In this document: positions 44,388 through 64,000 of the stretch, in pieces
Position numbering within the stretch: the first letter of the stretch is position 1
How the letters are laid out: each line of letters begins with the position of its first letter
Assembly: GCA_000720995.1 (NCBI GenBank)
Contig: JOEL01000005.1
Location: forward strand, 124,001 to 188,000
Origin: Streptomyces celluloflavus
GTDB taxonomy: Bacteria; Actinomycetota; Actinomycetes; Streptomycetales; Streptomycetaceae
DNA: 64,000 nucleotides
Direction of reading: 5' to 3'
Notes under the pieces: generated by a model
What the model saw: the letters and a program-made list of their open reading frames with translations, nothing else
What the model was told of the DNA's origin: nothing
Databases searched by the model: none
Translations under genes and position numbers: made by a program

Positions 44388-45413
44388 TCAGCCGTCCAGC
44401 CGCACGGGCACTTCCTTGGCGGCGGACGCGAAGAGCGCCTCGATGACGCGGGCCTGCTCCACGGCATCCGCGCGGCCGTACGGGAAAGGCGTGCCGTTGG
44501 CGATCGCCGTCGACAGCGCGTCGAACTGGATGCGGGAGACCGCGTACTGCTCACCGCAGCGGTAGGCGCCCTCCGGGTCCACGTCCACGTACTCGCTGAC
44601 CGGGTCCAGATGCGGCGGCGGGCCCTGCCGCTGCACCTCGATGCGGGTGACGTCGCGGCAGAACCACGGGTCCTGGAAGACCAGGCGTCCGGTGGTGCCG
44701 ACGACCTCCAGGGTGTCGCCCCGGCACACCTCCTGACCCACCTCGAACTGGGCCAGCACGTCGCCCGGCATCCGCAGCGTGGCCGCGAAGTGGTGGTCGC
44801 AGGCGCCCTCCCGGCGGACCTCCTCGGCGTAGACGCGCTCCGGTGCCCCGCCGAACAGCCGGATCGCGGTCAGCGCGAAGGAGCCCAGGTCCAGCAGACC
44901 GCCGCCGCCGCGCTCGGGAAAGCGGCGGAAGTAGTCCGCCGGCAGACTGGCGGTGCAGGCGGCGTAGATATGGCGCAGCTCGCCGATATGGCCCTCCTCC
45001 ACAAGCTTCTTGGCCAGCAGGAACTGCGGATGGTGACGGGGCATCACCCCCTCGATGCACTGCCGGCCCGCGGCCTCGGCCGCGTCGAAGACCCGCTCGG
45101 TGTCGGCGGTGCCGAGCGCGAACGGCTTCTCCACCAGCACATGCTTACCGGCCTCCAGCGCCCTGACCGCCCACTCGGCATGGTCGACCGGGTCCAGGGC
45201 GACGAAGACGGCCTCCACTTCGTCGTCCTCCAGCAGCTCCGCGTAGCTGCCGTAGGACCGGGCGACGGCGTGGGTCCGGGCGTAGGCGCGGGCCGTCTCC
45301 GCGTCGTCCTGCGCGACGGCGACGAACTCGGTCGTGGTGGAGGCCGCCTTGGCCTTCATCGCGACGTCCGCGTAGCCGCCGGTGACCAGCAGCCCCCAGC
45401 TCACCTCTCTCAT
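44388..45413 (-). CDS. Gfo/Idh/MocA-family oxidoreductase
   Basis: 341 residues from ATG 45413 (GGAAAGGACC upstream). N-terminal Rossmann fold with WGLLVTGGYADVAMKAK (a variant of GxGxxG), the family hallmark VEKPFAL, and C-terminal alpha/beta domain with GGGGLLDLGSFA. Reduces or oxidises a carbonyl/alcohol of a sugar-like or cyclic substrate with NAD(P). Its ATG overlaps the stop of the preceding small gene, so it is the distal gene of the series. Substrate unknown. Confidence 0.85.
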   Translation of the reverse strand: MREVSWGLLVTGGYADVAMKAKAASTTTEFVAVAQDDAETARAYARTHAVARSYGSYAELLEDDEVEAVFVALDPVDHAEWAVRALEAGKHVLVEKPFALGTADTERVFDAAEAAGRQCIEGVMPRHHPQFLLAKKLVEEGHIGELRHIYAACTASLPADYFRRFPERGGGGLLDLGSFALTAIRLFGGAPERVYAEEVRREGACDHHFAATLRMPGDVLAQFEVGQEVCRGDTLEVVGTTGRLVFQDPWFCRDVTRIEVQRQGPPPHLDPVSEYVDVDPEGAYRCGEQYAVSRIQFDALSTAIANGTPFPYGRADAVEQARVIEALFASAAKEVPVRLDG

Positions 45414-45768
45414 GAACACGGTCCTTTCCGGGCCCGGAGGCCCTCGCACAGTCGGGGTTCAGGGGTTCCGGCTCCGGGGAGCCGGTCGATGCCGTCCCGG
45501 AAGCGGAGCTTGGCGGCCGCGCCGGTCCGCGCGACCCCGGGCCCGCCGAGGATCAGGGCGCCGGGACGGCCGGGGGAGAGCTCGGGCCACCGGGGCGCGT
45601 ACGCGCTGCGGGGCCCCGCAGCGCGCGAAGGACGCCACGAGGCCGGTGAAGGTGTCCGGCACCCGCCGCTGCGGCGGACCGTCGCCGAACTCCCGGACGG
45701 CGGCGCGCAGTTCGCCGTCGTCGGCGGGCGGGCCGGAACGTGACGGGAGAGGCGGCACCGGCCGTCAT
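45410..45768 (-). pseudogene. Small operon gene broken by two frame changes
   Basis: ATG 45768 overlaps the LLM-gene stop (ATGA) and a TGA at 45410-45412 overlaps the Gfo/Idh ATG, both marks of a real coupled gene. The 359-bp interval is not a multiple of three. Codon bias follows three frames in turn: MTAGAASPVTFRPA, then DDGELRAAVREFGDG through FTGLVASFARCGAP, then YAPRWPELSPGRPGAL to the stop. The second change falls at a perfect 22-bp palindrome (45603-45624). Intact length would be about 118 residues. Decay or sequencing/assembly errors at GC palindromes are both possible. No family recognised. Confidence 0.5.
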
Positions 45769-46712
45769 CGGGCGGCCACCCCCTCGTCGAGCAGCAGGGA
45801 ACGGATCTGCGCGAACAGGTCGTACTGCCGGCGGGTGTCCGCGCCGAACGGCACCAGTACGAGGGTCCCGGCGCCCGCGTCCGCGTACTCCCGCAGGCGC
45901 TCCGCCACCTGCCGCGGGCCGCCGCCGAGGGCGAGCGCGGCGGCCCGCTCGCGGTCCAGCCCCTGTGCCTTGACGAGATAGTCGACGACCGGCCCGGCCG
46001 CCGCGGCGGACGGCCGCTCGGTCGCCCGGACAAAGGTCACAAGGCCGGTGCGGGGGACCGGCACGCCGCGCTCGGCGGCCAGTTCGGCCAACCGCGCCGC
46101 GCCCGCCGCCAGCTGCTCCGGCGTCTTCAGCGCCGCCAGCCAGCCCTGGCCGTATGCCGCGGCGCGGCGCAGGGACGCCTCGGCCCCGCCGCCGATCCAG
46201 ACCTCCGGCACCGGAGCGGACGGCGCCAGCGCCACCCGCGCCCCCCGGGGCGCACCGGCCAGTGCGGTGGGCCGCCCGGCGAGCAGATCCGGCAGCGCCC
46301 GGAGGAACCGGTCGGTGCGCCGGCCGCGCTCCTTCGGGGAGAAACCGGCCGCCGCCCACTCCCCGGCCTCACCCGACCCCACGGCCACGCCCAGCAGGAC
46401 GCGGCCGCCGGAGAGGTGCTGCAGCGTGGCGATCTGTTTCGCCGCCCAGGCCGGCGCCCGCAGAGCCGGCAGCATGACGCCGTAGCCCACGCGGATCCGC
46501 CGGGTCGCGGCCGCCGCCGTCGCGAGCACCATCGAGCTGTCCAGGACGGGGAAGCCCGACGCCAGCCGGTCACCCGTCCACATCGAGTCCAGGCCCGCCT
46601 CCTCCGCGTGCCGGGCGAGCCGCGCGATGTCGACGGCCCCGTCGTGACTTTCTTCGCCGGGCTCGAAGTTGACCGGCAGCTGCACACCTATGTGGAGCGT
46701 CACGAGACTCAC
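45765..46712 (-). CDS. LLM-class flavin/F420-dependent oxidoreductase
   Basis: 315 residues from GTG 46712, which overlaps the stop of the FAD monooxygenase (GTGA). Luciferase-like TIM barrel: IGVQLPV strand, AEEAGLDSMWTGDRL, GVMLPALRAPAWAAKQIATL, and LLGVAVGSGEAGEW. Such proteins are F420-dependent reductases/dehydrogenases or FMNH2-dependent monooxygenases. The two FMN reductases in this locus could supply FMNH2. Alkanesulfonate-monooxygenase-like chemistry is a possibility given the sulfur-amino-acid genes nearby. Confidence 0.8.
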   Translation of the reverse strand: MSLVTLHIGVQLPVNFEPGEESHDGAVDIARLARHAEEAGLDSMWTGDRLASGFPVLDSSMVLATAAAATRRIRVGYGVMLPALRAPAWAAKQIATLQHLSGGRVLLGVAVGSGEAGEWAAAGFSPKERGRRTDRFLRALPDLLAGRPTALAGAPRGARVALAPSAPVPEVWIGGGAEASLRRAAAYGQGWLAALKTPEQLAAGAARLAELAAERGVPVPRTGLVTFVRATERPSAAAAGPVVDYLVKAQGLDRERAAALALGGGPRQVAERLREYADAGAGTLVLVPFGADTRRQYDLFAQIRSLLLDEGVAAR

Positions 46713-48292
46713 CGGCTCCGGTGGAGTGCGACGCCCAGCTCCTGCTCCAGGCGGTCCAGATCCTTCTCGTGGCCATGGGCCGCCAGGTGGCCGTCCGGAC
46801 GTACGAGGTGGTACCCGGGGCGGTGGCAGCCGGTGGCGGCCGCCGCGTCCCGCGGCGACATCGACACGACACGCACCCGCTGCCGCAGCGCCGCGATGTG
46901 CTCGACCTGGGCGATCCAAGCGGTGTCGTGCGCGGGTTCACTGACGGCGACCGTCCAGGCGAGCGGGTCGGCGCCGGGGCCCGAAATCCCGTACGCGAGC
47001 GCCAGTTTGCGGGGGAGGAGACCACCCGGCCGCACACCCCCGGGGAGCTTGCCCAGACCCCGGCAGGCGGCCGGACCCGACGGCGACTGCGCGGCGCGCC
47101 GGGGGGTGTACGACTGGCGGCGCCCGGCCAGGACGGGGGCGTAGAGGCGGGCCGCCGCGCCGGTGCGGTCGGCGAGCCGGAAGCCGGCGTCGCGGGCCCA
47201 CACCTTGGCCCGGCCGCTGACCATCCAGGCCCGGGTGTGCAGGTCGGTGTCGCGCACGGTGCGCCGGGTGGCCTCGGCGCGCTCCGGCCCGTACGTGGCC
47301 AGCAGCGAGGACGGCGACACGCCCTTGAGCACCGAGGCCAGCTTCCAGCCGAGGTTGTTCGCGTCCTGCAGACCATTGTTCATGCCCTGGCCGCCGGCCG
47401 GGCTGTGCACATGGGCGGCGTCGCCGATCAGGAACACCCGGCCCAGCTGGAAGTCGGCGGCCAGCCGGGCGTGCACCCGGAAGACCGTGGTCCACACCGG
47501 CTCGGTGATGCGGATGCCGCGCGGGCCGCGCTCGTCCACGATCTCCTGCATCATCTCGACGCCCGCCGAGCTCGAACCGCGCGGCAGCACCGACAGGAAA
47601 CGGAAGACGCCGTCCGGCTGCGGCACCACCGCCAGCGTGCCGCCGGCTCCCTGGTAGTAGAGGATCTCCTCGGGCGACAGATCGCCGTCCACCCTCGCGT
47701 CGACCAGCGCGAACTCCAGCCCGTAGGTGGACCCCTGGAAGCCGATGCCCAGCTGCCCGCGCACCGCGCTGCCCGCCCCGTCGGCACCGACGACGAACGG
47801 CGCGAAAGCCCGCTCGACCACACCGTCCGCCGTCTCCAGGACGGCCCGCACGCCGGAGGTGGCCTCGATCCTGCCGGAGTGGTCCACACCCTCCAGGGCC
47901 AGCAGGCGGACGCCACGCTCCACCTTGCCGCCCAGGGACTCCAGCTTCTCGGTGAGGATGCGCTCCGTCTCGTACTGCGGCAGCACACGCGGCGCGTGCT
48001 CGGCGGGCAGCCGGAACGAGGCGAGGTGGTTGCGGTCCGAGAAATAGCTCAGCGTGCGCACCGTGCCCGACACCCCGAGCACCTCGTCCCGCAGCCCCCG
48101 GTCCTCCAGGATGTCGAAGGCCCGCGGATAGACCGACAGCGCCCTGGGGACCCGCATCGGCTCGGGCAGCGCGTCGACGATCCGGACCCGGACCCCGCGG
48201 TCGAGCAGCTCGCAGGCGAGGAGCAGACCGGACGGCCCCGCCCCGACGACGAGTACATCGAAAACCACATCGGATGGTGTGCTGCTCTTCAT
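46709..48292 (-). CDS. Group A FAD-dependent aromatic monooxygenase (MhpA/rifampicin-monooxygenase type)
   Basis: 527 residues from ATG 48292, AGAAGG upstream. VLVVGAGPSGLLLACELL at the N terminus, VVGADGAGSAVR in the middle, and GDAAHVHSPAGGQGMNNGLQ for the ribityl contact; the C-terminal 130 residues form the thioredoxin-like third domain of the longer phenol-hydroxylase class. Expected to hydroxylate an aromatic or enolised ring with NAD(P)H and O2. Confidence 0.85.
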   Translation of the reverse strand: MKSSTPSDVVFDVLVVGAGPSGLLLACELLDRGVRVRIVDALPEPMRVPRALSVYPRAFDILEDRGLRDEVLGVSGTVRTLSYFSDRNHLASFRLPAEHAPRVLPQYETERILTEKLESLGGKVERGVRLLALEGVDHSGRIEATSGVRAVLETADGVVERAFAPFVVGADGAGSAVRGQLGIGFQGSTYGLEFALVDARVDGDLSPEEILYYQGAGGTLAVVPQPDGVFRFLSVLPRGSSSAGVEMMQEIVDERGPRGIRITEPVWTTVFRVHARLAADFQLGRVFLIGDAAHVHSPAGGQGMNNGLQDANNLGWKLASVLKGVSPSSLLATYGPERAEATRRTVRDTDLHTRAWMVSGRAKVWARDAGFRLADRTGAAARLYAPVLAGRRQSYTPRRAAQSPSGPAACRGLGKLPGGVRPGGLLPRKLALAYGISGPGADPLAWTVAVSEPAHDTAWIAQVEHIAALRQRVRVVSMSPRDAAAATGCHRPGYHLVRPDGHLAAHGHEKDLDRLEQELGVALHRSR

Positions 48293-48367
48293 CGCCTTCA
48301 ACCTTCTGACTTCTCTTCGCGGACGGCGGACGCCGGGCGGGGCGCGGGCAAGGGCTCGAAGGATGCG

Positions 48368-48394
48368 CGGGCGCCGCTCAGGAAGCGGCGCCCG
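48368..48394 (-). terminator. Hairpin overlapping the N-acetyltransferase stop
   Basis: Perfect 11-bp stem (48368-48378 with 48384-48394) with a 5-base loop; the stop codon lies at 48378-48380. It may attenuate transcription into the downstream monooxygenase genes, splitting the series into two transcripts. Confidence 0.6.
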
Positions 48395-49175
48395 CCGGCA
48401 TCGGGGGCAGCGCGGGCAACCGGTCCAGCTCGATGCCGAACCACCGCTTGACGGCGGCGGGGAACGCCTCGTCGTCGAGCACCTCCTTGATCCGCCGGCC
48501 GTCCTCGTAACGGGTCAGCGTGCGGTCCAGCAGGGAGGCACGGCCCTCCGGCCGCACCAGCGAGGCCCAGATGGTGCCGCCGGTGACCGGCGAGTCCGCA
48601 GAGGTGCAAAACCACCACATCGTCGGAACGAAGTCGCCGATCTCGCGCACCCGGGTCTCCAGCCGGACCCGGTGGACCCCGTCGTGCACGATCTCCACAT
48701 CGCCGTCGGGCGTATCGACGATGCGGTACTCGCCGTTCTCGTCCTTCTGCGGCGAACGCTCGGCGAACCGCAGCGGACGCCAGCTCGCCCAGCGGAAGCC
48801 GACGTCGACGAGCCAGCACTCGCCGTCGATCTCCACCCGCAGCATCATGTGCCCGAAGAAGGCGCCCACCAGCGGCTCCTTGCCGTTGTGCAGGCTGCGC
48901 CCCGCCAGCAGGCTCACCCGGTAGCCGAGCGCCGTCAGCAGCGCGGCGAACGAGGTGTTGAGCTCATAGCAGCCGCCTCCCCGGCGCCGGTCGACGATCT
49001 TCTCCACCGCGCCCTCGCCGATCCTGATCGGTACGTCGAGGTTGAAGTCGAACGTCTCGAAGGGGACGGACTTCAAGTGCCGTTCCTGCAAGTACGCCAG
49101 GGCCGCCAGGTCTGCCTTCGCGGGGCGCTCGGCCCCGATCCGCTCCAGGTAGGCGTCCACGTTCACTGAGGTCAT
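48378..49175 (-). CDS. Arylamine N-acetyltransferase homologue
   Basis: 265 residues from ATG 49175. The catalytic triad of the NAT family is intact: Cys69 (RGGGCYELN), His109 (FFGHMMLRV) and Asp124 (WLVDVGF). Family members acetylate arylamines or hydrazines from acetyl-CoA; in biosynthetic clusters homologues form amides with other acyl thioesters, including ring closure in ansamycins. Next to a KAS III gene it may transfer a carrier- or CoA-bound acyl chain to an amine in this pathway. Confidence 0.85.
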   Translation of the reverse strand: MTSVNVDAYLERIGAERPAKADLAALAYLQERHLKSVPFETFDFNLDVPIRIGEGAVEKIVDRRRGGGCYELNTSFAALLTALGYRVSLLAGRSLHNGKEPLVGAFFGHMMLRVEIDGECWLVDVGFRWASWRPLRFAERSPQKDENGEYRIVDTPDGDVEIVHDGVHRVRLETRVREIGDFVPTMWWFCTSADSPVTGGTIWASLVRPEGRASLLDRTLTRYEDGRRIKEVLDDEAFPAAVKRWFGIELDRLPALPPMPAGAAS

Positions 49176-49319: not shown

Positions 49320-50336
49320 TCACCAATCGATCAGGACGAACCCGAACGTGAACCCGCCGCCGAACGCGGTGAGGAGGACCTTCCCGCCCTCCCGCAGGGC
49401 CCCCGCCCGCGCCGCATCGTCCAGCGTGATCGGAATCGACGCCGCGCCGGTGTTCCCGTAACCGGCCACCGTGGTGTGCATCCGGGCCCGGGGGAAGGCC
49501 AGATCCTGCTCCAGCGTCCGCAGCATCATGCCGTTCCCCTGGTGCGGCACGATGTGCGCGATGTCCTCCCTGGACACCCCGGCCTCGTCGAGGAAGTCGG
49601 ACAGCAGACCCGGCAGCTTCGAACGGACGATGTCCACGACACCACGGCCGTCCATGGCGAAATAGTGCAGCCGGTCGTCCACGGTGGCGTGCGAGGTGCC
49701 CAGCCGGGTACCGCCCGCCGGGACCTTCACCAGGTCCAGGCCCTCGCTGAAGTTCAGCAGCCGGGTGGCCAGCACCCGCCCCGGACCATGGCCCGGCCCG
49801 ATGACGACGGCCCCCGCCCCGTCACCGAGGAGCACCCGGGTCCGGCGGTCGGCGGGGTCGGTGTACCGGCTGTACATGTCGGCACCGATGACCAGCGCGT
49901 AGCCGCCACCGGCGGCCGCCACCCGGTGGGCCGTGGCGAGCGCGTAAGTGAAGCCGCTGCACACGGCGTTGAGATCGAAGGCGGCCGCGGTCGGGGGAGC
50001 GTCGAGCTGGTGCGCCACATGCGCCGCCGTGGCCGGCTGCGGGGAGTCGGGCGTGGACGTCGCGACGATGATCTGCGAGAGCTGCGCGGCGCTCACCCCC
50101 GCATCCTCCAGCGCCCGGCGCGCCGCCATCACCGCCATATCGGAGGTGGCCTCGTCGTTCTTCGCGAAACGCCGTTCGCGGATACCTGTCTTGCGCGTGA
50201 TCCACGCATCGTCCACGCCGGCCGGCGCGCCGATCTCGTCATTGCTCATCACGTAGGAGGGCAGATACGAACCGGTGCCCAGGACTGCCGTGGCCGTCGT
50301 ACTCGGACCTGCCTGTCGGTGGGAGTCATCGCTCAT
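49320..50336 (-). CDS. 3-oxoacyl-ACP synthase III (KAS III)-family enzyme
   Basis: 338 residues from ATG 50336, AAGGAGCC upstream. Catalytic triad of FabH-type enzymes is present: Cys126 (NAVCSGFTY), His265 (IVPHQGN) and Asn295 (GYGNTGAAS). No malonyl-ACP or acyl carrier genes are in the window, so it may act as an acyltransferase forming an ester, thioester or C-C bond on a pathway intermediate, as biosynthetic-cluster KAS III proteins often do. It is not next to other fatty-acid genes, arguing against a housekeeping FabH. Confidence 0.85.
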   Translation of the reverse strand: MSDDSHRQAGPSTTATAVLGTGSYLPSYVMSNDEIGAPAGVDDAWITRKTGIRERRFAKNDEATSDMAVMAARRALEDAGVSAAQLSQIIVATSTPDSPQPATAAHVAHQLDAPPTAAAFDLNAVCSGFTYALATAHRVAAAGGGYALVIGADMYSRYTDPADRRTRVLLGDGAGAVVIGPGHGPGRVLATRLLNFSEGLDLVKVPAGGTRLGTSHATVDDRLHYFAMDGRGVVDIVRSKLPGLLSDFLDEAGVSREDIAHIVPHQGNGMMLRTLEQDLAFPRARMHTTVAGYGNTGAASIPITLDDAARAGALREGGKVLLTAFGGGFTFGFVLIDW

Positions 50337-50533: not shown

Positions 50534-50812
50534 TCAGGACCGGCCCAGGACGCGGGCGACGGTCTCCTGGTCGAAGTTGACGGCGCTGCACCAGCCGCCG
50601 GTGGCCAGCTCGAACCAGATGTCGCTGACGATCACGCCCCGGGGGTTCTCGCCCTCGACGACCTCATCACCCTTGGCCCAGCCCACCGCGTCGTGGCCGG
50701 TGGTTCCGTCGGGCAGGAAGAGCTGCTGGACGGGGCTGTCCAGGGAGGGGCCGGAGCGGACGTTGGAGTCGCGCCAGATGGGGCCGAGGGAGAACGTCTT
50801 GGCGGTCGGCAT
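50534..50812 (-). CDS. Small SH3-like protein (92 aa)
   Basis: 92 residues from ATG 50812 with GGAGCACTCC before it. The sequence IWRDSNVRSGPSLDSPV is a bacterial SH3 (SH3b) signature, with WFELATGGWCSAV near the C terminus. Unlike the gene at 519-950 it has no signal peptide, so it should be cytoplasmic. It lies between the KAS III and FMN-reductase genes. A binding or accessory role is possible; no catalytic residues are recognised. Confidence 0.65.
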   Translation of the reverse strand: MPTAKTFSLGPIWRDSNVRSGPSLDSPVQQLFLPDGTTGHDAVGWAKGDEVVEGENPRGVIVSDIWFELATGGWCSAVNFDQETVARVLGRS

Positions 50813-50862: not shown

Positions 50863-51417
50863 TCACACGGCCGCCGGGACCGGGGACAAGGTGAGGACCT
50901 GGCCGAGCATGGCGAGCAGCCGCTCGCCCTGGCCGCCCGGCGGATCGCCCGGCAGCAGGGAGCCGGCGTGCGGGACGACGACGCCCAGCGGGGTGGGCCA
51001 GGCGCGCAGCGCGTGGCTGATCGTGCGCAGCGTGGCCAGAGTGGAGGCGGTGCCCTGGGTACCGGCACCGACCGCGACGCAGCCGACGGTACGGCCGTCC
51101 AGGAACGGCCGGGGGCCGTCCAGATCGTTGACATAGTCCAAGGCGTTCTTCAGCAAGCCGGAGACCGTGCCGTGGTAAGTGGGGGAGACCAGGACGACGC
51201 CGTCGGCGCGGCCGAGTTCGTCGAGGAAGTCCCGCAGACCCGGATGGGTACCGGACAGACCGGGGCGGTAGAACGGGAAGTCGATCTCACCACCGGTGAA
51301 GGTCCGGGTGGTGGCTCCTTTTTCCTGGAGTTGCTCGGCGCACCACAGAGCGGTGCGGTCCGACGTCGATCCGACGCGGAGTGAACCGCTGATCAGCACG
51401 GTGTGTGAGGTAGGCAC
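50863..51417 (-). CDS. NADPH-dependent FMN reductase
   Basis: 184 residues from GTG 51417 (AAGGAAGG upstream). Flavodoxin-like fold: ISGSLRVGSTSDR phosphate-binding loop and SPTYHGTVSGLLKNALDY for the flavin ring. Provides reduced FMN, probably to the LLM or other flavin enzymes of this locus. A second, related gene lies at 61236-61787. Confidence 0.85.
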   Translation of the reverse strand: MPTSHTVLISGSLRVGSTSDRTALWCAEQLQEKGATTRTFTGGEIDFPFYRPGLSGTHPGLRDFLDELGRADGVVLVSPTYHGTVSGLLKNALDYVNDLDGPRPFLDGRTVGCVAVGAGTQGTASTLATLRTISHALRAWPTPLGVVVPHAGSLLPGDPPGGQGERLLAMLGQVLTLSPVPAAV

Positions 51418-51455: not shown

Positions 51456-52679
51456 CTATTCGACGGTGAGCAGAGCGGAGTCGGCGGCGCTCAGACGGAT
51501 GTCCTGCGGAGTCCAGGCGACGACATCGAGGGCCGCTTCGTCCTTGCGGCCGTGGGATTTCATGAAGTCGTTGCGCGCGCGCTCCTCGGCCTGACTGGCG
51601 CCCTGGTCGAGCGAGCCCTGGCGGCGCGAATGGAGCACGACCGCCGAGACCCGCCCGATGCGCTCGCGCTCGTACGCCTTCAGCGCGGCGGGCACCTCGT
51701 CCGGGCCCGGATGGGCGCGCAGCGCGGCGGCCAGGACCACCGAGTCCTCCAGAGCCGTGTTCGCGCCCTGGCCCAGCGCCGGGACCATCGGATGGGCGGC
51801 GTCGCCGAGCAGCGCCACCCGGCCGTCCACCCAGTACGGGGCCGGGTCGCGGTCGTGGATGTCGGTGACGGCGACATCGTCCGGATCGGCCTCGCGGATC
51901 AGGCCGGCGAAGGGGGCGTGCCAGTCGGCGAGCCGCTCCAGCAGTGTGCGCAGCGCCGTCTCGCGGCCCATGGCGGGCCATTCCCCGGCCTCGGCGGTGA
52001 TCTTCGCGGCCCAGTACAGGGTGCCGCCCCCGACCGGGGCGACGAAGAGCTGGATACCCCGGCCGCCGGCGACGAACGGCTGGGGGTAGAGCGCGGAGCC
52101 GGCCGTGCGGCCGCGCACGGACGTGTAACCGCGGTACCGCGGCGGGCCGTCGCCCAGCATGCGCTGCCGCACGGCGGACCTGATGCCGTCGGCCGCGATG
52201 AGGAAACCGGCGGTACGGGTGCTCCCGTCCGACAGCCGCACGCACACCGACGCGTCGTCCGCGGTGTAATCCTCGACCGCGGTGTTCAGCAGCACCGTCA
52301 CCCCGGCGGCGGCCGCCTCGTCGAACAGCGCGTTCTGCAGGGCCGTGCGCAGGATGGGGATCTGGGGTGCGCCGAGCCGCGTGCCCACCTCGCCGATCGG
52401 CTCCTTGGAGAGCACGGCGCCGGTGGAGTCCATCAGCAGCCGCACCGCGTCGTCCGGGGTGACCCAGCCATCGGTGCGCACGCGCTCGCCGAGACGGGCG
52501 CCGAGGGCCCCGGCCGCCCGCACACCGTTCGCGTACAGCATCAGACCCGAGCCGACATCGTTGATACCCGGGGCCCGCTCGACGACCGTGACCTCGGTTC
52601 CGGCGCCCGCCAGGGCGACCGCGGCGGCGAGCCCGCCGATGCCGCCGCCTGCGACGACGGCGCTGCGCTTGGGGGACAT
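51456..52679 (-). CDS. Group A FAD-dependent monooxygenase (urate/salicylate hydroxylase-like)
   Basis: 407 residues from ATG 52679, AAGGAGCACC upstream. GGGIGGLAAAVALA N terminus, IAADGIRSAVRQ DG motif, and GDAAHPMVPALGQGANTALED for the ribityl contact. Similar proteins hydroxylate electron-rich rings such as salicylate or urate. Located between an FMN reductase and the cyclic-amide hydrolase; oxidation of a heterocycle before or after ring opening is an attractive but unproven role. Confidence 0.85.
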   Translation of the reverse strand: MSPKRSAVVAGGGIGGLAAAVALAGAGTEVTVVERAPGINDVGSGLMLYANGVRAAGALGARLGERVRTDGWVTPDDAVRLLMDSTGAVLSKEPIGEVGTRLGAPQIPILRTALQNALFDEAAAAGVTVLLNTAVEDYTADDASVCVRLSDGSTRTAGFLIAADGIRSAVRQRMLGDGPPRYRGYTSVRGRTAGSALYPQPFVAGGRGIQLFVAPVGGGTLYWAAKITAEAGEWPAMGRETALRTLLERLADWHAPFAGLIREADPDDVAVTDIHDRDPAPYWVDGRVALLGDAAHPMVPALGQGANTALEDSVVLAAALRAHPGPDEVPAALKAYERERIGRVSAVVLHSRRQGSLDQGASQAEERARNDFMKSHGRKDEAALDVVAWTPQDIRLSAADSALLTVE

Positions 52680-56291: not shown

Positions 56292-58102
56292 GCCGCTACC
56301 GCCGTGGGTTCGGACCGGCGCGCCGGCCTGCGGAACAGCTCCCGCCACACCTCGTGCACCAGCAGCGCCCACAGGGTCAGGGACGTGGTGTCGTCGGGCG
56401 TGTCGGCCTGCGCGGCGAAGAGCGCGGCGACCGCGGCCGCATCGAGCTGGCCGCCGTCCTTCAGCCGCGCGGCGGCGAGCATGTCCCGGGCGTACTCCCA
56501 CAGCCGGGTACCGGGCGCCAGCATGGCCGTGACGGGCAGGGTGAAGGGCTGCTTGGGACGGTTGAGCACCGTATCGGGCACCAGCCCGGAGGCGGCCGCG
56601 TACAGCGTCCGCTTCACGCCCCCGCCCCGGATGCGCAGCGCGTCGGGCAGGCCCCGGCCCGGGGCGATGATGCTGCGCTGGCAGAACGGCAGCCGGGCCT
56701 CGACGGAGCTGGCCATGCTCAGGTGGTCCACCCGGCGCAGGTGGTAGGCGGGCAGCCGGTGGCCCAGCTCGAACGCGCTGATCCGCTCCAGGACCGTCCC
56801 CGCACCCTCGCGCAGCCGCTCCAGGACGTCGGCGGGGAGGGGCGGCACATCCTCGACGAACGCGCGGTAGGCATCGGTGTAGAGGCCGTGGCGGCGGTGG
56901 GCGGGGAGGACGCCCAGCGCGTCCAGGTAGTCCCCGTACCACGCCTGGCCGGACCCGGCGGCCCCGGCGGCCGCGCGCATCCGTCCGTAGCCGCCGAAGA
57001 CCTCGTCGGCGGCGTCGCCGGTCAGCGCGACCTTGAAGCCCGCGTCGCGGACGGCGGCGAAGAGCGCGTGGGTGCTCAGCGTGATGGGGTCGGCGTTCGG
57101 CTGGCCCAGATGCCAGACGACGTCCTCCAGCAGACCGGGGAAGCCGGCCGGGTCGATCTCGACCTGGTGGTGCGTGGTGCCCGCGCGCTCGGCCGCCTCG
57201 CGGGCGAAGTGCCGCTCATCGAAGGGCCAGTCGCCGCCGTAGGCGATGTTGAAGGAGTGCACCGGCCCGTGCTCGGCGGCCAGGGAGGTCACCAGGCTGG
57301 AGTCCAGGCCGCCGGAGGTGATGACGGCGACCGGCACATCGGCGACGAGCAGCCGGCCGACCTCCTCACGCAGCCGCTCGCGCACCAGGGCGCCGGCCTC
57401 CTCGGCGCCGGTGAAGCCGTGGTCCTCGGGCTGCTGGGGGCGGTGCACGGTGCGCGGGGTCTCGCCGAGCTCGCAGGTCATGGTGGTGGACGGCGGCAGG
57501 ACCCGGACACCGTCGAAGAACGTCTGCTCGCCGAAGGGCGTCTTGGTGGCCAGATAGGCGTCCAGCCCGGCGTCCCAGATGCCGTCGGACATCCCGCCGA
57601 AGCCGAGCAGCGCCGACAGCTCGGAGGAGAAGTGCAGCGAGCGGCCGGCCGCGTCCCAGCGGTAGTACAGCGGCTTCATGCCGATGTGGTCGGTGGCCAG
57701 CAGCAGCCGGGGCCGTTCGCCGCGCAGGTCCACCACGGCGACGGCGTACATCCCGTCGAGGTGGTCGACGAAGCCGGCACCGTACTCGGCGTACAGGGCC
57801 GGGAGGACGCCGCCGTCACAGCGATCGGGGAAGACGTGCCCCAGCCCCCGCAGGCGGGCGCGGAGCGCGTCGTGGTTGTAGATCTCGCCGTTGAAGACGA
57901 CCCGGATGCGGCCGCCGTCACTCTCGTACGGCTGCTGCCCGCCGTCCAGGTCGACGATGGCGAGGCGGTTGCTGCCGATGCCCCAGCCGGCACCCCGGGC
58001 CGAACCGCTGGCGTCCGGGCCTCCGTGCCGTTGCAGCGCGGAGGCTGTTCTGAGGTCGTTGGGGGAGGCTGTCGCGTTGAAGTAGCCGAAGATGCGGCAC
58101 AT
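56288..58102 (-). CDS. Glutamine-hydrolysing asparagine synthase family enzyme
   Basis: 604 residues from ATG 58102; the next residue is Cys (MCRIFGYF), the N-terminal nucleophile of class II glutaminases, which fixes the start. Glutaminase domain to about residue 190 (VFNGEIYNHDALR), synthetase domain with PP-loop ITSGGLDSS. In clusters, such proteins amidate carboxylates (for example malonate to malonamate) or close beta-lactams, apart from making asparagine. Located between a cysteine-synthase homologue and PrpF-like isomerase, it probably amidates a carboxylate intermediate. Confidence 0.85.
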   Translation of the reverse strand: MCRIFGYFNATASPNDLRTASALQRHGGPDASGSARGAGWGIGSNRLAIVDLDGGQQPYESDGGRIRVVFNGEIYNHDALRARLRGLGHVFPDRCDGGVLPALYAEYGAGFVDHLDGMYAVAVVDLRGERPRLLLATDHIGMKPLYYRWDAAGRSLHFSSELSALLGFGGMSDGIWDAGLDAYLATKTPFGEQTFFDGVRVLPPSTTMTCELGETPRTVHRPQQPEDHGFTGAEEAGALVRERLREEVGRLLVADVPVAVITSGGLDSSLVTSLAAEHGPVHSFNIAYGGDWPFDERHFAREAAERAGTTHHQVEIDPAGFPGLLEDVVWHLGQPNADPITLSTHALFAAVRDAGFKVALTGDAADEVFGGYGRMRAAAGAAGSGQAWYGDYLDALGVLPAHRRHGLYTDAYRAFVEDVPPLPADVLERLREGAGTVLERISAFELGHRLPAYHLRRVDHLSMASSVEARLPFCQRSIIAPGRGLPDALRIRGGGVKRTLYAAASGLVPDTVLNRPKQPFTLPVTAMLAPGTRLWEYARDMLAAARLKDGGQLDAAAVAALFAAQADTPDDTTSLTLWALLVHEVWRELFRRPARRSEPTAVAA

Positions 58103-58135
58103 ATGGGCTATCCGTTCCGGTGACAAACGTGGGTT

Positions 58136-59098
58136 TCACTCGGTCGACAGCGACAGATACCGTTCGCCGGTGTCGGGGAAGACGGTGACGATCGTCGAGC
58201 CCGCCCAGCGCTCCCGCCGGGCCAGCAGGCGCGCGGCGTACGCGGCGGCGCCCGAGGAGATGCCGGTCAGCAGACCGGTGGCGCGGTTGACCTCGCGGGT
58301 GGTGCCGGCGGCGGCCTCGTCCGGGACGGCGATGGCCTCGTCGATCAGATCGAGGTCCATGATCTCGGAGACGTAGCCGGCACCGATGCCGGGAATGCCG
58401 TGCGGCCCCGGCGCCCCGCCGTTGAGGATCGCGGCACGGGCCGGCTCGACCGCCACCACGTGCACGTCCCGGCGCTCCTTGAGGTAGCGGGCCACACCGG
58501 TGAGCGTGCCGCCGGTGCCCACGCCGCACACCAGCACGTCGACCTGCCCGCCGGTGGCCGCCCAGATCTCGGGCCCGGTCGTCTCGTAGTGGGCACGCAG
58601 ATTCTCCGGGTTCTCGTCCTGGTGGGCGAGCCAGGAACCGGGGATGCTGCGCTGGAGCTCCTCGGCGTGACGCCAGGCGGCCGGCAGCCCGTCCTCGTGC
58701 GGGACGAGGACGACCTCGGCGCCGAACTCCCGCAGGATCTGACGGCGTTCCTCGGTGGCGTTGTCAGGCATCACGATGATGCAGCGGTGGCCGCGCCGGG
58801 CGCTGAGCGCGGCCAGGGAGATGCCGGTGCTGCCGGAGGAGCACTCGATGACCGTGCCGCCCCGCGCGGGCAGCGCCCCGCAGACCTCCGCCTGGCGCAT
58901 CATGTACAGCGCCGGGCGGTCCTTGACGTTCAGCAGCGGGTTGAACATCTCCAGCTTGGCCAGCAGCCGGACGGAGTCCGGGAGGTGCGCGAGCCGGATC
59001 TCCATGAGCGGAGTGTTGCCGACCAGTTCTTCGATCGACCGGACGATCCGGCCGGCGGCGGGGGCGATGGGGGCGGTCGCTGTTTTCAAAGGTCCCAC
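58136..59098 (-). CDS. Cysteine synthase-like PLP enzyme with altered substrate loop
   Basis: 320 residues from GTG 59098 (GAGGAA ten bases upstream). Fold-type II beta-synthase: EELVGNTPLM, PLP lysine Lys59 in NPLLNVKDR, and GVGTGGTLTGVARYLK for the phosphate. The substrate-carboxylate loop, normally TSGNTG, is CSSGSTG here: the Asn is Ser90. Its partner at 62903-63853 keeps the normal loop. This suggests a changed nucleophile or acceptor, e.g. formation of a beta-substituted alanine other than cysteine. Only 33 bases before the asparagine-synthase start. Confidence 0.8.
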   Translation of the reverse strand: MGPLKTATAPIAPAAGRIVRSIEELVGNTPLMEIRLAHLPDSVRLLAKLEMFNPLLNVKDRPALYMMRQAEVCGALPARGGTVIECSSGSTGISLAALSARRGHRCIIVMPDNATEERRQILREFGAEVVLVPHEDGLPAAWRHAEELQRSIPGSWLAHQDENPENLRAHYETTGPEIWAATGGQVDVLVCGVGTGGTLTGVARYLKERRDVHVVAVEPARAAILNGGAPGPHGIPGIGAGYVSEIMDLDLIDEAIAVPDEAAAGTTREVNRATGLLTGISSGAAAYAARLLARRERWAGSTIVTVFPDTGERYLSLSTE

Positions 59099-59213: not shown

Positions 59214-60029
59214 TCAGGCCCGGACGGCCCCGCCCCGGGCGGCACCGAGGTGGTCGGCCGCGATCTGCTGGAGGTGGGTGATGTCGCTGGAGACCGTGGC
59301 GAAGGTGAAGTTCTCGCCCAGGCGCTCGGCCGCGGCGTCACCGGTCAGGCAATGGATGCCGCAGGCGATGCCCGCGCGCTCGGCCGCCTCGCTCACCCGC
59401 CGCAGCGCGTCCTCCAGGTCCTTCGCCACATCCGGGTCCCCGAAGTAGCGGGCGCCCAGGGCCACGGACAGATCGGCGGGACCGACGTAGACCGCGTCCA
59501 GCTCCGGCGTGGCACAGATCGCCTCCAGGTTCTCCAGCGCCGCGGCCGTCTCGATCATCACGATGCAGGCGACGGCCTCGTCGACCTCGTCCGGCACCGA
59601 CCCCAGCCGCACCTCGCCGCGGACCGGACCGCCCAGGCTGCGGGTGCCCTTGGGCTGGTGGCGGCAGGCGCGGGCGGCGACGGCGGCCTCCTCGGCGGTG
59701 CCGACCATCGGCACGATCACACCGCGGGCCCCGGTGTCCAGGGCCATGCCGATGGCGATCGGGTCGACGGAGGGGACCCGCAGGACGCCCGCGGAGCGCT
59801 GCCGGGAGTCCACCGCCAGCAGCGCCGACTGCCAGCCCGCCTGGTGCAGGATGCCGTGCTGGCCGTCGATGCCGATGTAGTCGTAGCCCAGGCCCGCGAT
59901 GCGCTCGGTGCCCGTGGGGTTGTCGCAGGCGATCCAGTAGCCGACCATCCGCTCGCGGCGGCGCAGCCGCGCGGTGAACGCGGCGGGTCCCTGGGGCTGT
60001 CGGCCCGTGCCGGGCGCGGTGGCGCTCAC
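59214..60029 (-). CDS. HpcH/HpaI-type class II aldolase
   Basis: 271 residues from GTG 60029, overlapping the TauD-like stop (GTGA). Family features: ARGVIVPMVGTAEEAAVAARACR, metal-binding Glu in IMIETAAALENL and Asp in VYVGPADLSVALG. Catalyses (retro-)aldol reaction of pyruvate or oxaloacetate-type enolates with an aldehyde. Could build or cleave a hydroxy-dicarboxylate skeleton, which fits the PrpF-like isomerase further along. Confidence 0.85.
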   Translation of the reverse strand: MSATAPGTGRQPQGPAAFTARLRRRERMVGYWIACDNPTGTERIAGLGYDYIGIDGQHGILHQAGWQSALLAVDSRQRSAGVLRVPSVDPIAIGMALDTGARGVIVPMVGTAEEAAVAARACRHQPKGTRSLGGPVRGEVRLGSVPDEVDEAVACIVMIETAAALENLEAICATPELDAVYVGPADLSVALGARYFGDPDVAKDLEDALRRVSEAAERAGIACGIHCLTGDAAAERLGENFTFATVSSDITHLQQIAADHLGAARGGAVRA

Positions 60030-60886
60030 TCGCCCTCCTCGATGACGTAGCTGGACTTGCCGTCCAGGCCGACCGGCACGTCGCCGGTGATGGAGACGCG
60101 GTGCAGGACGCGCTGGTGGCTGTCGTAGTCGTCGACGCCGTAGTGCTGGGCGCTGCGGTTGTCGAAGATCAGGACGTCCCCGGGGCGCCAGGTCCAGCGG
60201 GCGGTGTTCTCCGGGCGGAGCACATACGCCTGGAGGACGTCGATGAGGGGCCGGGACTCGCGCAGCTCCATACCGACCAGGCGCTGGGCGAAGCCGCCCA
60301 GGAGAAGACTGGGCTCACCGGACTCGGGGTGGACGCGCACGACCGGGTGCGCGGTCTCGAACCGCTTGGCCAGGAACGCCTTGCGCACCTGCTCGCCGCG
60401 CTCGGTACCCAGGCGGGGCTGCTCGGCGTGGTTGGTGTGCACTGCCCACAACCTGTCGGCGATCTCCCGCAGTTCGGCCGGGAGATCCTTGTACCCGGCG
60501 GCGGCGTTGGCGACCAGCGTGTCCCCGCCGTACGGGGGCAGGGTGACACTGCGCAGAGTGGTGCCCAGGGACGGGGCCCGGGTGAAGCTGATGTCGACGT
60601 GCCAGTGGTTGGCGCGCTGATCCGCGCCGTCGACCGGGATGACCTGCACCGCGCCGTCGACCGTGCGCATCATCGGGTGCTTCTGCGTCAGCGGCCCGAA
60701 GCGGCCGGCGAAGGCCAACTGGTCCGCGTCGTCGATGTCCTGGTCCCGGAAGAAGAGCACCTTGTGCTCCAGGAAAGCCTCGTGGATCTGGGACCACACC
60801 GAGTCCGGCAACTCGCTGCTCAGGTCGGCGCCGAGCACCTCGGCACCGATCCTGCCGCCGGTCTTGCGTATATCGAAGTGGGACAC
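60026..60886 (-). CDS. TauD/TfdA-family Fe(II)/2-oxoglutarate dioxygenase
   Basis: 286 residues from GTG 60886 (GGAAAGGA seven bases before). The 2-His-1-Asp facial triad is visible: His96-x-Asp98 in NHWHVDISF, and distal His262 in LHRVSITGD, followed by Arg263 for 2-oxoglutarate; RSVTLPPYGGDTL is typical of the clade. First gene of the minus-strand series. Could be taurine dioxygenase (sulfite release) or a hydroxylase of the pathway intermediate. The combination with CysE/CysK homologues makes either credible. Confidence 0.85.
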   Translation of the reverse strand: MSHFDIRKTGGRIGAEVLGADLSSELPDSVWSQIHEAFLEHKVLFFRDQDIDDADQLAFAGRFGPLTQKHPMMRTVDGAVQVIPVDGADQRANHWHVDISFTRAPSLGTTLRSVTLPPYGGDTLVANAAAGYKDLPAELREIADRLWAVHTNHAEQPRLGTERGEQVRKAFLAKRFETAHPVVRVHPESGEPSLLLGGFAQRLVGMELRESRPLIDVLQAYVLRPENTARWTWRPGDVLIFDNRSAQHYGVDDYDSHQRVLHRVSITGDVPVGLDGKSSYVIEEGE

Positions 60887-61235: not shown

Positions 61236-61787
61236 ATGGCCAGGATTGCCCTGATCTCCGGTAGCCTGCGCGCGGAGTCCTCGAACTCCGCGGTGGTCGC
61301 CACGATCCGGAAGATCATCGAGGGGCGGGCCGGCGGCCACGAGGCCACCGTCGTGCCGCTGCACGACTTCCCGCCGTTCGACCAGGACGTGGAGCGCGCG
61401 GGCCACCCCGCGCCCCTGGAGTCCGCCCGCGGCCAGGTGTCCGGTGCCGACGCCCTGATCGTCTGTTCCCCCGCCTACAACGGCTACCCCCCGGGCGTGC
61501 TGAAGAACGCGCTGGACTGGCTCTCCCGCCCCGGCGGCGAGAGCCCGCTGACCGACCTGCCGACGGCGGTCCTGAGCGCCTCCCCGGGCCAGGCCGGCGG
61601 CGCGAACGTACAGCCGCACGTGCGCCGGATACTCGCCAACTGCGGTGCCGCCGCCGTGGAGTGCGACGAGGTCGCCGTGGGCGACGCGATCAGCCTGCGC
61701 ACCTCCGAGGGCCTCATCGAGGACCCCGCCACCGTGAGCAGGCTGGAGAAGCTGGTCGACGCGGTCCTCGCGGCGGCGGCGCGCTGA
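61236..61787 (+). CDS. NADPH-dependent FMN reductase
   Basis: 183 residues from ATG 61236, GGAAAGGG upstream. ISGSLRAESSNSA phosphate loop and SPAYNGYPPGVLKNALDW flavin-binding segment, as in the SsuE/azoreductase group. Divergent from the TauD-like operon and first of three plus-strand genes. It shares family with 50863-51417; having two reductases implies more than one reduced-flavin consumer (LLM enzyme, perhaps another beyond the edge). Confidence 0.85.
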   Translation: MARIALISGSLRAESSNSAVVATIRKIIEGRAGGHEATVVPLHDFPPFDQDVERAGHPAPLESARGQVSGADALIVCSPAYNGYPPGVLKNALDWLSRPGGESPLTDLPTAVLSASPGQAGGANVQPHVRRILANCGAAAVECDEVAVGDAISLRTSEGLIEDPATVSRLEKLVDAVLAAAAR

Positions 61788-62165: not shown

Positions 62166-62774
62166 ATGCACACCGTCCCCGGACTGCTGCGCACGATGCG
62201 CGAGGACCTCGACGTGGTCATCGAGCGCGACCCGTCCATCAGCACCCGCCGCGAGGGCGTCCTGCACCCCGCGCTGCCCGCCCTGTGGGCCCACCGCGTC
62301 GCCCACCGCCTGCACCGCCGCGGCCGCCGCATGAGCGCCCGGGTCATCGCCTACTTCGCCCGCCGCCACACCGGCGTGGAGATCCACCCCGGCGCGCGGA
62401 TCGGTCGCCGCGTCTTCATCGACCACGGCTCGTCGGTCGTCATCGGCGAGACGGCGGTGGTCGGCGACGACGTCACCCTCTTCCACCAGGTCACGCTCGG
62501 TGCCGTCGGCTGGTGGAACGACAACCACCGCGCCCCGGGCGAGCGGCGGCACCCCGTCGTCGGCAACGGCGTCGTCCTGGGGGCCAACGCGACGGTGCTG
62601 GGGCCGGTGACCATCGGTGACGGCGCGCTGATCGGCTCGATGGCCACGGTGACCAAGGACATCCCGCCCGGCAGCCGGGTCTACGCACCCGCGTCCGTGG
62701 TCAAGAGCGTGGGCGGCTCCGCCGGGCCGGCCGGCGACCCCGTACGGCTCCTCGCCTCGACCGGCTCGTGGTGA
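62166..62774 (+). CDS. cysE: Serine O-acetyltransferase
   Basis: 202 residues from ATG 62166 with AGGAGGAG upstream, the size of short actinobacterial CysE. N-terminal helices (LRTMREDLDVVIERDPS) and left-handed hexapeptide-repeat beta helix: GVEIHPGARIGRRVFIDHG, catalytic His in DHGSSVVIG and HQVTLGAVG, ending GSMATVTKDIPPGSRV. Makes O-acetylserine, the acceptor for the adjacent cysteine-synthase homologue. A dedicated copy within a cluster implies local supply of O-acetylserine for cysteine or another beta-substituted alanine. Confidence 0.85.
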   Translation: MHTVPGLLRTMREDLDVVIERDPSISTRREGVLHPALPALWAHRVAHRLHRRGRRMSARVIAYFARRHTGVEIHPGARIGRRVFIDHGSSVVIGETAVVGDDVTLFHQVTLGAVGWWNDNHRAPGERRHPVVGNGVVLGANATVLGPVTIGDGALIGSMATVTKDIPPGSRVYAPASVVKSVGGSAGPAGDPVRLLASTGSW

Positions 62775-62902
62775 TCCCCCCGCCCCGCTGAGCCGAGCCA
62801 CCGCCCCCGCCCCGGCACCCCGGCCGGGCGCACCGCCTCGCCCCGCCGTCCTCCCCGCCTCTTCCGTCGCGCAGTACGCGTACAACTGACAGGAGTTCAC
62901 TC

Positions 62903-63853
62903 ATGGTTGCTCGTACCGCCGAGTGCCGGATCGCGGACGGTCTGGAGGACTTGATCGGCAACACCCCCCTGGTGCGGCTGCATCTGGAGGGCGCCCACCC
63001 GGACGTGGAGGTGCTGGCCAAGCTGGAGTCGGTCAACCCCTTCTCCAGCAGCAAGGACCGCTCGGCCCTGCACATGATGCGGGGCGCGGAGGCGCGCGGC
63101 GAACTCGTCCCCGGCGGCACGGTCGTGGAGTCCACCTCCGGCAACACCGGCGTCGCGCTGGCCGCCCTCGCCGCCGCCCGCGGCTACCGCTGCGTCATCG
63201 TCCTGCCCGACAACGCCATGCCCGAACGGATCGGGCTGCTGCGCGCGCTGGGCACCGAGGTCGTCCAGACCCCCAGCGAGGACGGCTTCCAGGGCGCCAT
63301 CGACAAGGCCGAGGAGATCAACGCCCGCACGGCCGGCTCGTGGTACGCCCGCCAGCACGAGAACGACGACAACGTGCTGGCCCACTACGAGACGACGGGC
63401 CCGGAGATCTGGGCCGACACCGCCGGGACCGTGGACGTCCTGGTCGCCGGCGTCGGCACCGGCGGCACCCTCACCGGCACCGCCCGCTACCTCAAGGAGC
63501 GCAACCCCGCCCTGGAGGCGGTGGCCGTCGAGCCGGAGTCCTCGCCCGTTCTCTCCCGCGGCTACGGCGGACTGCACCGCATCCCCGGCCTGAACGGCGG
63601 CTTCGTCGCCGCCACCACCGACCGCACGCTCATCGACCACGTCTTCACCTGCAGCGACGAGGACGCCGTCCGGGCCGCCAAGTCCCTGGCCGCCCGGCAG
63701 GGCCTGTTCGTCGGGGTCTCCTCGGGCGCAGCGGTCCACGGCGCCGCCCGGCTGGCCCGCCTGCCCCAGTACGCGGGGCGGACGATCGTGACCGTCCTGC
63801 CCGACACCGGCGAGCGCTACGTCAGCCTCTGGAACGAGGGGGCCGCCCCGTGA
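62903..63853 (+). CDS. O-acetylserine sulfhydrylase (cysteine synthase) homologue
   Basis: 316 residues from ATG 62903, AGGAG upstream. LEDLIGNTPLVRL, PLP Lys51 in NPFSSSKDR, intact substrate loop STSGNTG (Asn81), and GVGTGGTLTGTARYLK. It pairs with CysE to convert O-acetylserine plus sulfide, or another nucleophile, to the beta-substituted alanine. About half the residues match the gene at 58136-59098 by eye, pointing to duplication and divergence within the locus. Confidence 0.85.
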   Translation: MVARTAECRIADGLEDLIGNTPLVRLHLEGAHPDVEVLAKLESVNPFSSSKDRSALHMMRGAEARGELVPGGTVVESTSGNTGVALAALAAARGYRCVIVLPDNAMPERIGLLRALGTEVVQTPSEDGFQGAIDKAEEINARTAGSWYARQHENDDNVLAHYETTGPEIWADTAGTVDVLVAGVGTGGTLTGTARYLKERNPALEAVAVEPESSPVLSRGYGGLHRIPGLNGGFVAATTDRTLIDHVFTCSDEDAVRAAKSLAARQGLFVGVSSGAAVHGAARLARLPQYAGRTIVTVLPDTGERYVSLWNEGAAP

Positions 63854-63951
63854 CCGCGCCGCTCCCGCACCGCGGCGCCTTCCACGCCAACGCCTGTTCG
63901 GCCGCCCCGCGAACGCGGGTACCGGCGAAGGCCGTTCCGGACATAACATAG
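63850..63951 (+). CDS. Possible 33-aa peptide coupled to the cysteine-synthase gene
   Basis: GTG 63850 overlaps the preceding stop (GTGA) and opens MTAPLPHRGAFHANACSAAP..., ending TAG 63949-63951. Coupling is its only support; composition is basic with one Cys. It may be a chance frame. Confidence 0.2.
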   Translation: MTAPLPHRGAFHANACSAAPRTRVPAKAVPDIT

Positions 63952-63993
63952 AGGTCATTCTTTTTGTACTATTCAGAGATCGAGGACCAGCAC

Positions 63994-64000
63994 GTGGCAC
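63994..64000 (+). CDS. Possible start of a gene leaving the window
   Basis: GTG at 63994 follows GAGGA at seven-base spacing, after an AT-rich stretch (about 63940-63975) of promoter character. Only two codons are visible. Confidence 0.3.

Follow-up and report, generated by a model that had tools for sequence, protein, structure and literature searches.

A biosynthetic gene cluster in Streptomyces celluloflavus carries a conserved four-gene core, encoding an AsnB-type glutamine-dependent amidotransferase, a PrpF-family isomerase, an acyl-CoA-dehydrogenase-like flavoprotein (ACAD) and a dihydroorotase-like cyclic amidase (DHOase), which is linked to a serine O-acetyltransferase (CysE) and an O-acetylserine synthase homologue (CysK2). 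The cluster lies in a 64,000-nucleotide stretch of an 8.68-Mb genome (assembly GCA_000720995.1, contig JOEL01000005.1; G000:C5:124001-188000), the whole of which we call the window. We read it as a specialised-metabolite cluster for an unusual amino acid bearing a nitrogen heterocycle, whose ring would be made by a route like that of pyrimidine synthesis and joined to a serine-derived backbone, and we give this reading a probability of about 40%. An earlier note, made from the letters of the window alone, had described one coherent biosynthetic locus with no nameable pathway; this assessment stands, and no description of the locus appeared in the open-access papers searched, with MIBiG and most subscription journals lying outside that search. 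The cluster belongs to a recurring orphan class whose enzyme families are known but whose combination of them we could not match, and it may have been published under another name.

A four-gene core recurs across the genus

In the window, the core genes follow one another on the minus strand as AsnB (56288..58102; TIGR01536, 324 bits, above cut-off), PrpF (55236..56291; Pfam PrpF, 64 bits), ACAD (54136..55266; Pfam) and DHOase (52760..54148; NCBIfam, dihydroorotase/allantoinase-like); gene families here and below were assigned with Pfam and NCBIfam profiles. When 392 same-genus genomes were searched with PrpF at 1e-10, 120 of them gave matches, and 42 loci scoring at least 260 bits, hereafter strong loci, fell in 39 of the 392. 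At 1e-40, a search of 396 phylum-wide genomes, few of them from the genus, returned the window's own genome only. We compared the neighbourhoods of 63 distinct PrpF loci in fetched stretches of mostly 20 kb, to which the absences reported here apply. This set left out the strong loci of G325 and G367, took in 15 of 31 weaker PrpF loci and included stretches cut by contig ends (L048/L057 and L115). Hits to QOR, HxlR and MFS2, three queries from left of the locus whose reading frames were wrong, do not enter the results.

AsnB lay directly upstream of PrpF at 58 of the 63 loci, and the contiguous quartet AsnB–PrpF–ACAD–DHOase, in that order, was present at 43. Nine compact clusters (L073, L093, L108, L109, L111, L114, L116, L117 and L118) share one arrangement, with CysE, CysK, cupin, EamA, cupin, AsnB, PrpF, ACAD, DHOase and flavin reductase genes on a single strand and a ligase-family gene (f19) upstream on the opposite strand (families read from the L093 copies). 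Among related loci in named genomes (n = 13), 12 are from Streptomyces and one is from Actinosynnema. Stand-alone tautomerases of the 4-oxalocrotonate tautomerase (4-OT) type occur near 15 loci of the first set.

The window cluster extends this core by an FAD monooxygenase (FMO2, a proposed ring hydroxylase; 51456..52679; Pfam FAD_binding_3), an NADPH-dependent FMN reductase (50863..51414; Pfam FMN_red), a conserved 92-aa protein (SmallP; 50534..50812) and a set of three genes for a TauD-type 2-oxoglutarate oxygenase (60026..60886; Pfam TauD), an HpcH/HpaI-type aldolase (59214..60029; Pfam) and a variant PLP synthase, CysK1 (58136..59089; Pfam PALP), all on the minus strand. TauD–HpaI–CysK1 accompanies 19 of the 43 quartet loci within the fetched stretches and one more, in G166, in the adjoining stretch L106. 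The earlier note had proposed that a polycarboxylate is built by aldolase and isomerase, then amidated and cyclised or opened. Amidation and cyclisation match the conserved core, but the aldolase falls outside what is invariant, which leaves room for another origin of the ring precursor.

PrpF also recurs in other company. At L080–L091, AsnB–PrpF is found with a PIG-L deacetylase, a short-chain dehydrogenase/reductase, a methionyl-tRNA-synthetase-like protein and a glycosyltransferase (Pfam, single copies); the portion seen of a paper on aminoacyl-tRNA-synthetase-like peptide systems (PMC2922099) makes no mention of 'PrpF'. At L074, L075, L092 and L113, PrpF is clustered with an ACAD-like protein, to which the profiled L092 copy adds a RiPP enzyme of the MbnB/TglH/ChrH family; L075 encodes a repeated-motif protein that could be a RiPP precursor.

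CysE and CysK2 are tied to the core

CysE matches at 1e-20 occurred in 76 of the 392 same-genus genomes, leaving 316 without a match, and the cluster CysE (62166..62774, plus strand; TIGR01172, 173 bits against a cut-off of 211; EpsC model, 160 bits against 150) was the single match in its own genome at 1e-10. A CysE gene lay no more than 30 kb from 28 of the 42 strong PrpF loci, against 0.26 expected from random placement (this and later expectations take the genome as 8.7 Mb), and CysE was present in 32 of the 39 strong-PrpF genomes versus 44 of the 353 others (Fisher P = 1.7e-19). The scarcity of CysE in the genus and its marked co-localisation make O-acetylserine a likely substrate of the cluster. 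Together with the positions of AsnB and the quartet, these counts place the co-occurrence of the genes well above chance and bear out the conserved core for which the earlier note had suggested a neighbourhood comparison.

The cluster encodes two synthases of the CysK type. CysK2 (62903..63853, plus strand) scores 349 bits with the cysKM model, above cut-off, and 342 bits with the cysK model, below it; it carries a KDR motif with the PLP lysine, and the TSGNTG loop is kept in all CysE-linked CysK2 rows. In CysK1 the loop reads SSGSTG in 22 of 22 rows, not the TSGNTG of O-acetylserine sulfhydrylase. Our neighbourhood table uses the label CysK1 for both synthases, which we separated by gene order, loop and tree: TauD–HpaI-linked CysK1 forms one side of a branch with support of 90/91 in the CysK tree, and the CysK2 tree intermixes quartet, non-ribosomal peptide synthetase (NRPS) and stand-alone loci. 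By linkage, it is CysK2 and not CysK1 that is tied to O-acetylserine. The idea that a variant synthase converts O-acetylserine to a beta-substituted alanine is supported for the likely substrate but not, in that form, for the enzyme: there are two synthases, and the CysE-linked one keeps TSGNTG while the variant CysK1 does not.

Beyond the quartet, an L-amino-acid ligase and a PLP synthase of the CysK type are fused in one protein (L124:10416-12632); L125 and L126 encode CysK-matching proteins of similar length. At L121:6385-16924 (G038), a valyl-tRNA-synthetase-type gene stands with genes for an FMN reductase, CysE, CysK2, a major facilitator superfamily (MFS) transporter and three ATP-grasp ligase-family genes, the ring-making module being absent from the fetched stretch. 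The synthetase-type gene could be a self-resistance copy.

Some of these enzymes would also suit an ordinary regulon for scavenging sulfonates or sulfate esters, a case for which the earlier note had allowed, in which TauD, a luciferase-like flavin monooxygenase (LLM), FMN reductases, CysE and CysK would release sulfite or sulfide and make cysteine. The nearest PDB relative of TauD is the alkylsulfatase AtsK, the LLM, two FMN reductases and two CysK homologues are present, and no CysE other than that of the cluster was found in the genome. Such a regulon nevertheless leaves AsnB, PrpF and DHOase, the most constant genes, unexplained; the recognised transporter is of the MFS type rather than an ABC importer (no search was aimed at importers); and CysE–CysK2 tracks amino-acid ligases, to the point of fusion in one case. 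We regard it as highly improbable.

Enzyme signatures are consistent with imide ring formation

Among NCBIfam models, DHOase scores best with dihydroorotase (316 bits) and then allantoinase (301 bits), both below cut-off, and narrowly passes the pyrC_multi subfamily model (283 bits against a cut-off of 279). Its best PDB match is the dihydroorotase 2gwn, with which it has the motifs HVHFR and MPNT in common; both are missing from the two allantoinase entries and the L-hydantoinase in our alignment. HVHFR and MPNT, which we take to hold the carboxylate-binding residues, were found with the metal ligands in 47 of 47 DHOase homologues; the roles of these and the other catalytic residues discussed here are those we presume for the families. 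By these motifs, the DHOase-like enzyme is predicted to have dihydroorotase-type metal ligands and carboxylate-binding Arg and Asn.

The other core proteins are similarly constant. AsnB retains its PP-loop in 58 of 58 rows and the glutaminase residue Cys2 in 55 of 58, the other 3 rows being gapped. Both cysteines of the PrpF pair are present at 43 of 43 quartet loci, and the second position is Cys in 55 of 66 PrpF genes overall. The ACAD-like protein has no Glu at the usual C-terminal catalytic column in 45 of 45 rows; some genuine members of the acyl-CoA dehydrogenase family carry the catalytic base elsewhere, and this protein may do likewise. PDB relatives of FMO2 include the ring hydroxylases salicylate monooxygenase and 6-hydroxynicotinate 3-monooxygenase. 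SmallP, with 38 invariant columns in a 13-row alignment, gave no match in Pfam and PDB searches, and its AlphaFold model (13 rows) was poor, with a mean pLDDT of 51. At L041:15873-17647, an Rrf2-family regulator and a flavohaemoglobin-like protein of globin/FAD/NAD families follow directly after SmallP, and at L045 SmallP is likewise followed by Rrf2-family and globin/FAD/NAD families.

From these signatures we propose that AsnB amidates an aconitate-like polycarboxylate and that PrpF shifts its double bond. The DHOase-like enzyme would then close the amide onto a carboxylate to give a cyclic imide, most likely a six-membered carboxylated ring that is a carbon analogue of dihydroorotate, for example 2,6-dihydroxypyridine-4-carboxylate. 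Exchanging the NH of carbamoyl-aspartate for CH2 gives the monoamide of tricarballylate, and an aconitate-type amide would suit a dihydroorotase-like cyclase in which the carboxylate-binding residues are kept. The ACAD-like flavoenzyme and FMO2 may oxidise the ring. CysE would make O-acetylserine, and CysK2, the putative coupling enzyme, would attach the ring, by its N or C, to the aminoacrylate that O-acetylserine forms on PLP, yielding a beta-heterocyclyl alanine. In relatives of the window cluster, L-amino-acid ligases probably build this amino acid into peptides; in the window and in a second genome, G294, a KAS III-type ketosynthase and a NAT-family acyltransferase suggest an acyl cap. 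TauD–HpaI–CysK1 might supply or modify a further building block.

The quartet might instead make a five-membered ring of the maleimide or succinimide type, or a linear unsaturated amide, with the remaining steps as above. Aconitate-type amides can close to either ring size, and allantoinase, a five-ring enzyme, scores close to dihydroorotase (301 versus 316 bits). The dihydroorotase-type residues in all 47 homologues speak for the six-membered ring, as do the indigoidine/minimycin-type NRPSs that take the same position elsewhere (see below), and we consider the smaller ring or open chain quite unlikely.

Another account keeps the modular cluster but turns to N–O chemistry. Either AsnB would use hydroxylamine as the group it transfers, or N-hydroxylation would fall to the ACAD-like enzyme; the ring would then be an N-hydroxy imide or N–O heterocycle, and a CysK homologue would make a serine derivative linked through oxygen, in the manner of the O-ureidoserine synthase of D-cycloserine biosynthesis. 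A 'hydroxyamidotransferase' (7ylz) is the PDB entry most closely related to AsnB, the usual base is missing from the ACAD-like enzyme, which has flavin reductases adjacent, and O-ureido-L-serine synthase (3x43) is among the CysK relatives. AsnB, however, is also above the general asparagine synthase cut-off, the O-ureidoserine synthase comes last of the 60 CysK relatives shown, and no gene forming hydroxylamine or hydroxyurea was recognised, no search having been aimed at such genes. On this balance, N–O chemistry seems unlikely.

NRPSs as a possible counterpart of the quartet beside CysE–CysK2

Of twelve fetched CysE loci that have no strong PrpF nearby, six (L123–L126, L130 and L131) hold an NRPS of 1.3–1.4 kaa; at a seventh, in G023, an NRPS lies 13 kb off by coordinates. 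Each of the six NRPSs has an A, a T and a TE domain, the A domain being interrupted by an insertion of about 500 residues. A C-terminal tautomerase domain scores above the Pfam cut-off in L131 and slightly under it in L130, and 97% of the L123 NRPS aligns, at 45% identity, with a protein annotated as an indigoidine synthase. Genus-wide, 67 NRPS rows gave 65 such loci in 61 of 392 genomes after two split genes were merged; the window's own genome had no match to this A-insert-T-TE architecture at 1e-60.

CysE lay within 20 kb of 15 of the 65 NRPS loci, where 0.12 would be expected. Counted over 82 CysE copies, a strong PrpF locus is close by in 28 cases and such an NRPS in 15, and in no case are both (5.1 expected, P = 0.0009 with relatedness ignored). 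No strong PrpF locus is near an NRPS, which matches chance alone (0.04 expected); it is the count over CysE copies that is informative. Among weaker PrpF loci, 15 of 31 are within 35 kb of an indigoidine-type NRPS (0.14 expected); these largely share one gene order, many being of the L080–L091 kind, and are not independent. In minimycin biosynthesis, according to a review (PMC8724604), glutamine is the substrate that the NRPS oxidises and cyclises, and a tautomerase domain readies the ring for C–C coupling to a sugar. By analogy, the quartet would be an NRPS-free supplier of an imide similar to the indigoidine/minimycin-type ring.

Several observations weigh against a heterocyclic amino acid made in this way. 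Every step of the pathway chemistry is deduced from the genes. PrpF matches its best NCBIfam model, 4-oxalomesaconate tautomerase, at 85 bits, far under the cut-off of 440, and no 4-OT-type tautomerase match was found in the window and 39 kb to its right, nor a ligase in the window and 40 kb to its right. At 14 of the 42 strong PrpF loci there is no CysE inside 30 kb, so the quartet can act without O-acetylserine. Conversely, CysE–CysK2–ligase loci occur on their own (L121), and 39 of the 82 CysE copies are near neither a strong PrpF nor an NRPS. The exclusion of PrpF and NRPS around CysE rests on a P value of 0.0009 that takes no account of relatedness, and at the level of genomes strong PrpF and NRPS are independent (5/39 versus 56/353, P = 0.82).

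Extent and layout of the window cluster

All enzyme families named in the earlier note are present by Pfam or NCBIfam. The coupled minus-strand series it described comprises 15 genes from TauD (60886) to a Gfo/Idh/MocA oxidoreductase (44388), and the divergent plus-strand arm begins with a second NADPH-dependent FMN reductase (61236..61787; Pfam FMN_red) ahead of CysE and CysK2. Genes overlap at the TauD/HpaI, AsnB/PrpF, PrpF/ACAD, ACAD/DHOase and FMO1/LLM junctions; the remaining junctions of the series are about 30 to 350 bases apart.

Comparison with G294 sets the boundaries. A block common to both genomes runs from a TetR-family regulator at 41898..42539 (minus strand; Pfam TetR_N and TetR_C_7; 93% identity) to another at L009:6027-6719 (69.0–69.7 kb on the window scale), and its genes are 72–93% identical. 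Outside it, no called gene matched within the 57 kb of G294 compared, save one weak NAT match. The locus that the earlier note placed at 44388..64000 is thus real but wider, reaching from about 41.9 kb to 5.7 kb past the window end. Its statement that there is no NRPS here holds inside the syntenic block but not for the window, which contains, outside the block at 27572-34162, an NRPS gene (Pfam domains C, A and T).

At the left end, an MFS transporter gene (42770..44044, plus strand; Pfam MFS_1), syntenic in G294, encodes a probable exporter. An accessory arm follows on the minus strand, with the Gfo/Idh/MocA oxidoreductase (44388..45419; Pfam; syntenic in G294), the LLM (45765..46712; Pfam Bac_luciferase), an FAD aromatic-hydroxylase-type monooxygenase, FMO1 (46709..48268; Pfam FAD_binding_3), the NAT-family acyltransferase, a proposed N-acylating enzyme (48378..49175; Pfam Acetyltransf_2), and the KAS III-type ketosynthase (49320..50336; Pfam ACP_syn_III). 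Between LLM and Gfo, G294 has an intact carboxylesterase gene (COesterase by Pfam). All that is left of it in the window is a remnant (45470..45698, minus strand), with pieces of the C-terminal part in two frames by tblastn.

Among the loci examined, KAS III and NAT stand together with the core in the window and G294 only, and acylation through them is not supported in the form that the earlier note gave it. The same distribution would suit two neighbouring units, the core with CysE–CysK2 and an unrelated KAS III–NAT–FMO1–LLM–Gfo arm with another product. Against such a division, both genomes have the arm in a single block with the core, the transporter and the regulators, and genes called outside that block have no counterpart in G294, although close relatedness (about 90% identity) weakens this argument. 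We think two separate units improbable.

Right of the window lie a TetR gene (L009:964-1617), an epimerase-family gene, an AfsA-family gene (L009:2852-3793), a DDE transposase and the second TetR gene (L009:6027-6719), the TetR assignments being made by the look of the sequence; the AfsA-family and TetR-like genes are syntenic in G294 and suggest that the cluster is under control of the butyrolactone type. Immediately outside the block comes a gene of the 4-HFC-P synthase family (L009:6921-7745; Pfam 4HFCP_synth). L010:2326-13535 encodes an aminotransferase-fold PLP enzyme and a GATase–chorismate-binding fusion, with neighbours that by the look of the sequence resemble acyl-AMP ligases, a prenyltransferase and a P450, and is probably a further biosynthetic cluster.

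Relation to known systems

One parallel is with minimycin and indigoidine, where a six-membered ring of the imide type is made in oxidised form by an NRPS (MinA, A-Ox-T-TE-Tau), tautomerised and then coupled (PMC8724604). CysE–CysK2 loci L123–L126, L130 and L131 carry such NRPSs, whereas in the window the four-enzyme set would stand in the NRPS's place, and the coupling partner would be O-acetylserine rather than a sugar. Pyrimidine synthesis offers a second likeness, in the dihydroorotase-like enzyme with carboxylate-binding residues followed by a proposed flavin oxidation; unlike there, no carbamoylation enzyme was recognised in the cluster, and the nitrogen would come from the AsnB amide.

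D-cycloserine biosynthesis uses a serine acetyltransferase, a CysK-type O-ureidoserine synthase and an ATP-grasp enzyme. The window cluster resembles it in O-acetylserine and a CysK homologue, and its relatives do so in ATP-grasp enzymes, but it has the AsnB–PrpF–ACAD–DHOase core and no recognised ATP-grasp. Dapdiamide biosynthesis employs an amidotransferase, a 2-oxoglutarate oxygenase, an SbnA-type synthase and an ATP-grasp enzyme, which the cluster recalls with its amidotransferase, TauD-type oxygenase and CysK homologue and its relatives with ATP-grasp ligases; the core differs in having a cyclase and PrpF and no recognised acyl-AMP ligase or SbnB-type enzyme. Nybomycin biosynthesis includes KAS III and NAT, which also stand side by side in the window, with N-acylation proposed, while the remaining cluster differs. 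Dapdiamide- and nybomycin-like readings were set aside for these differences in gene content.

Implications

In its most specific and tentative form, which we hold to be doubtful, our proposal is a 'carba-pyrimidine' pathway: pyrimidine logic (amide, dihydroorotase-like closure, flavin oxidation), with one ring nitrogen exchanged for carbon, would give a nucleobase-like pyridine, a CysK homologue would couple it to O-acetylserine to give amino-acid counterparts of C-nucleosides, and the ring module would be interchangeable with indigoidine/minimycin-type NRPSs. If the ring hypothesis is true, the quartet is an NRPS-free route to 2,6-dihydroxypyridine or a related imide, and ring makers are exchanged behind one coupling module. 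Of 392 same-genus genomes, 39 have strong PrpF loci, and most of the loci fetched carry the quartet, yet they are undescribed in the literature searched. AsnB–PrpF–ACAD–DHOase together with CysE–CysK2 provides a handle for genome mining, and a family of probable amino-acid antimetabolites may have gone unrecognised.

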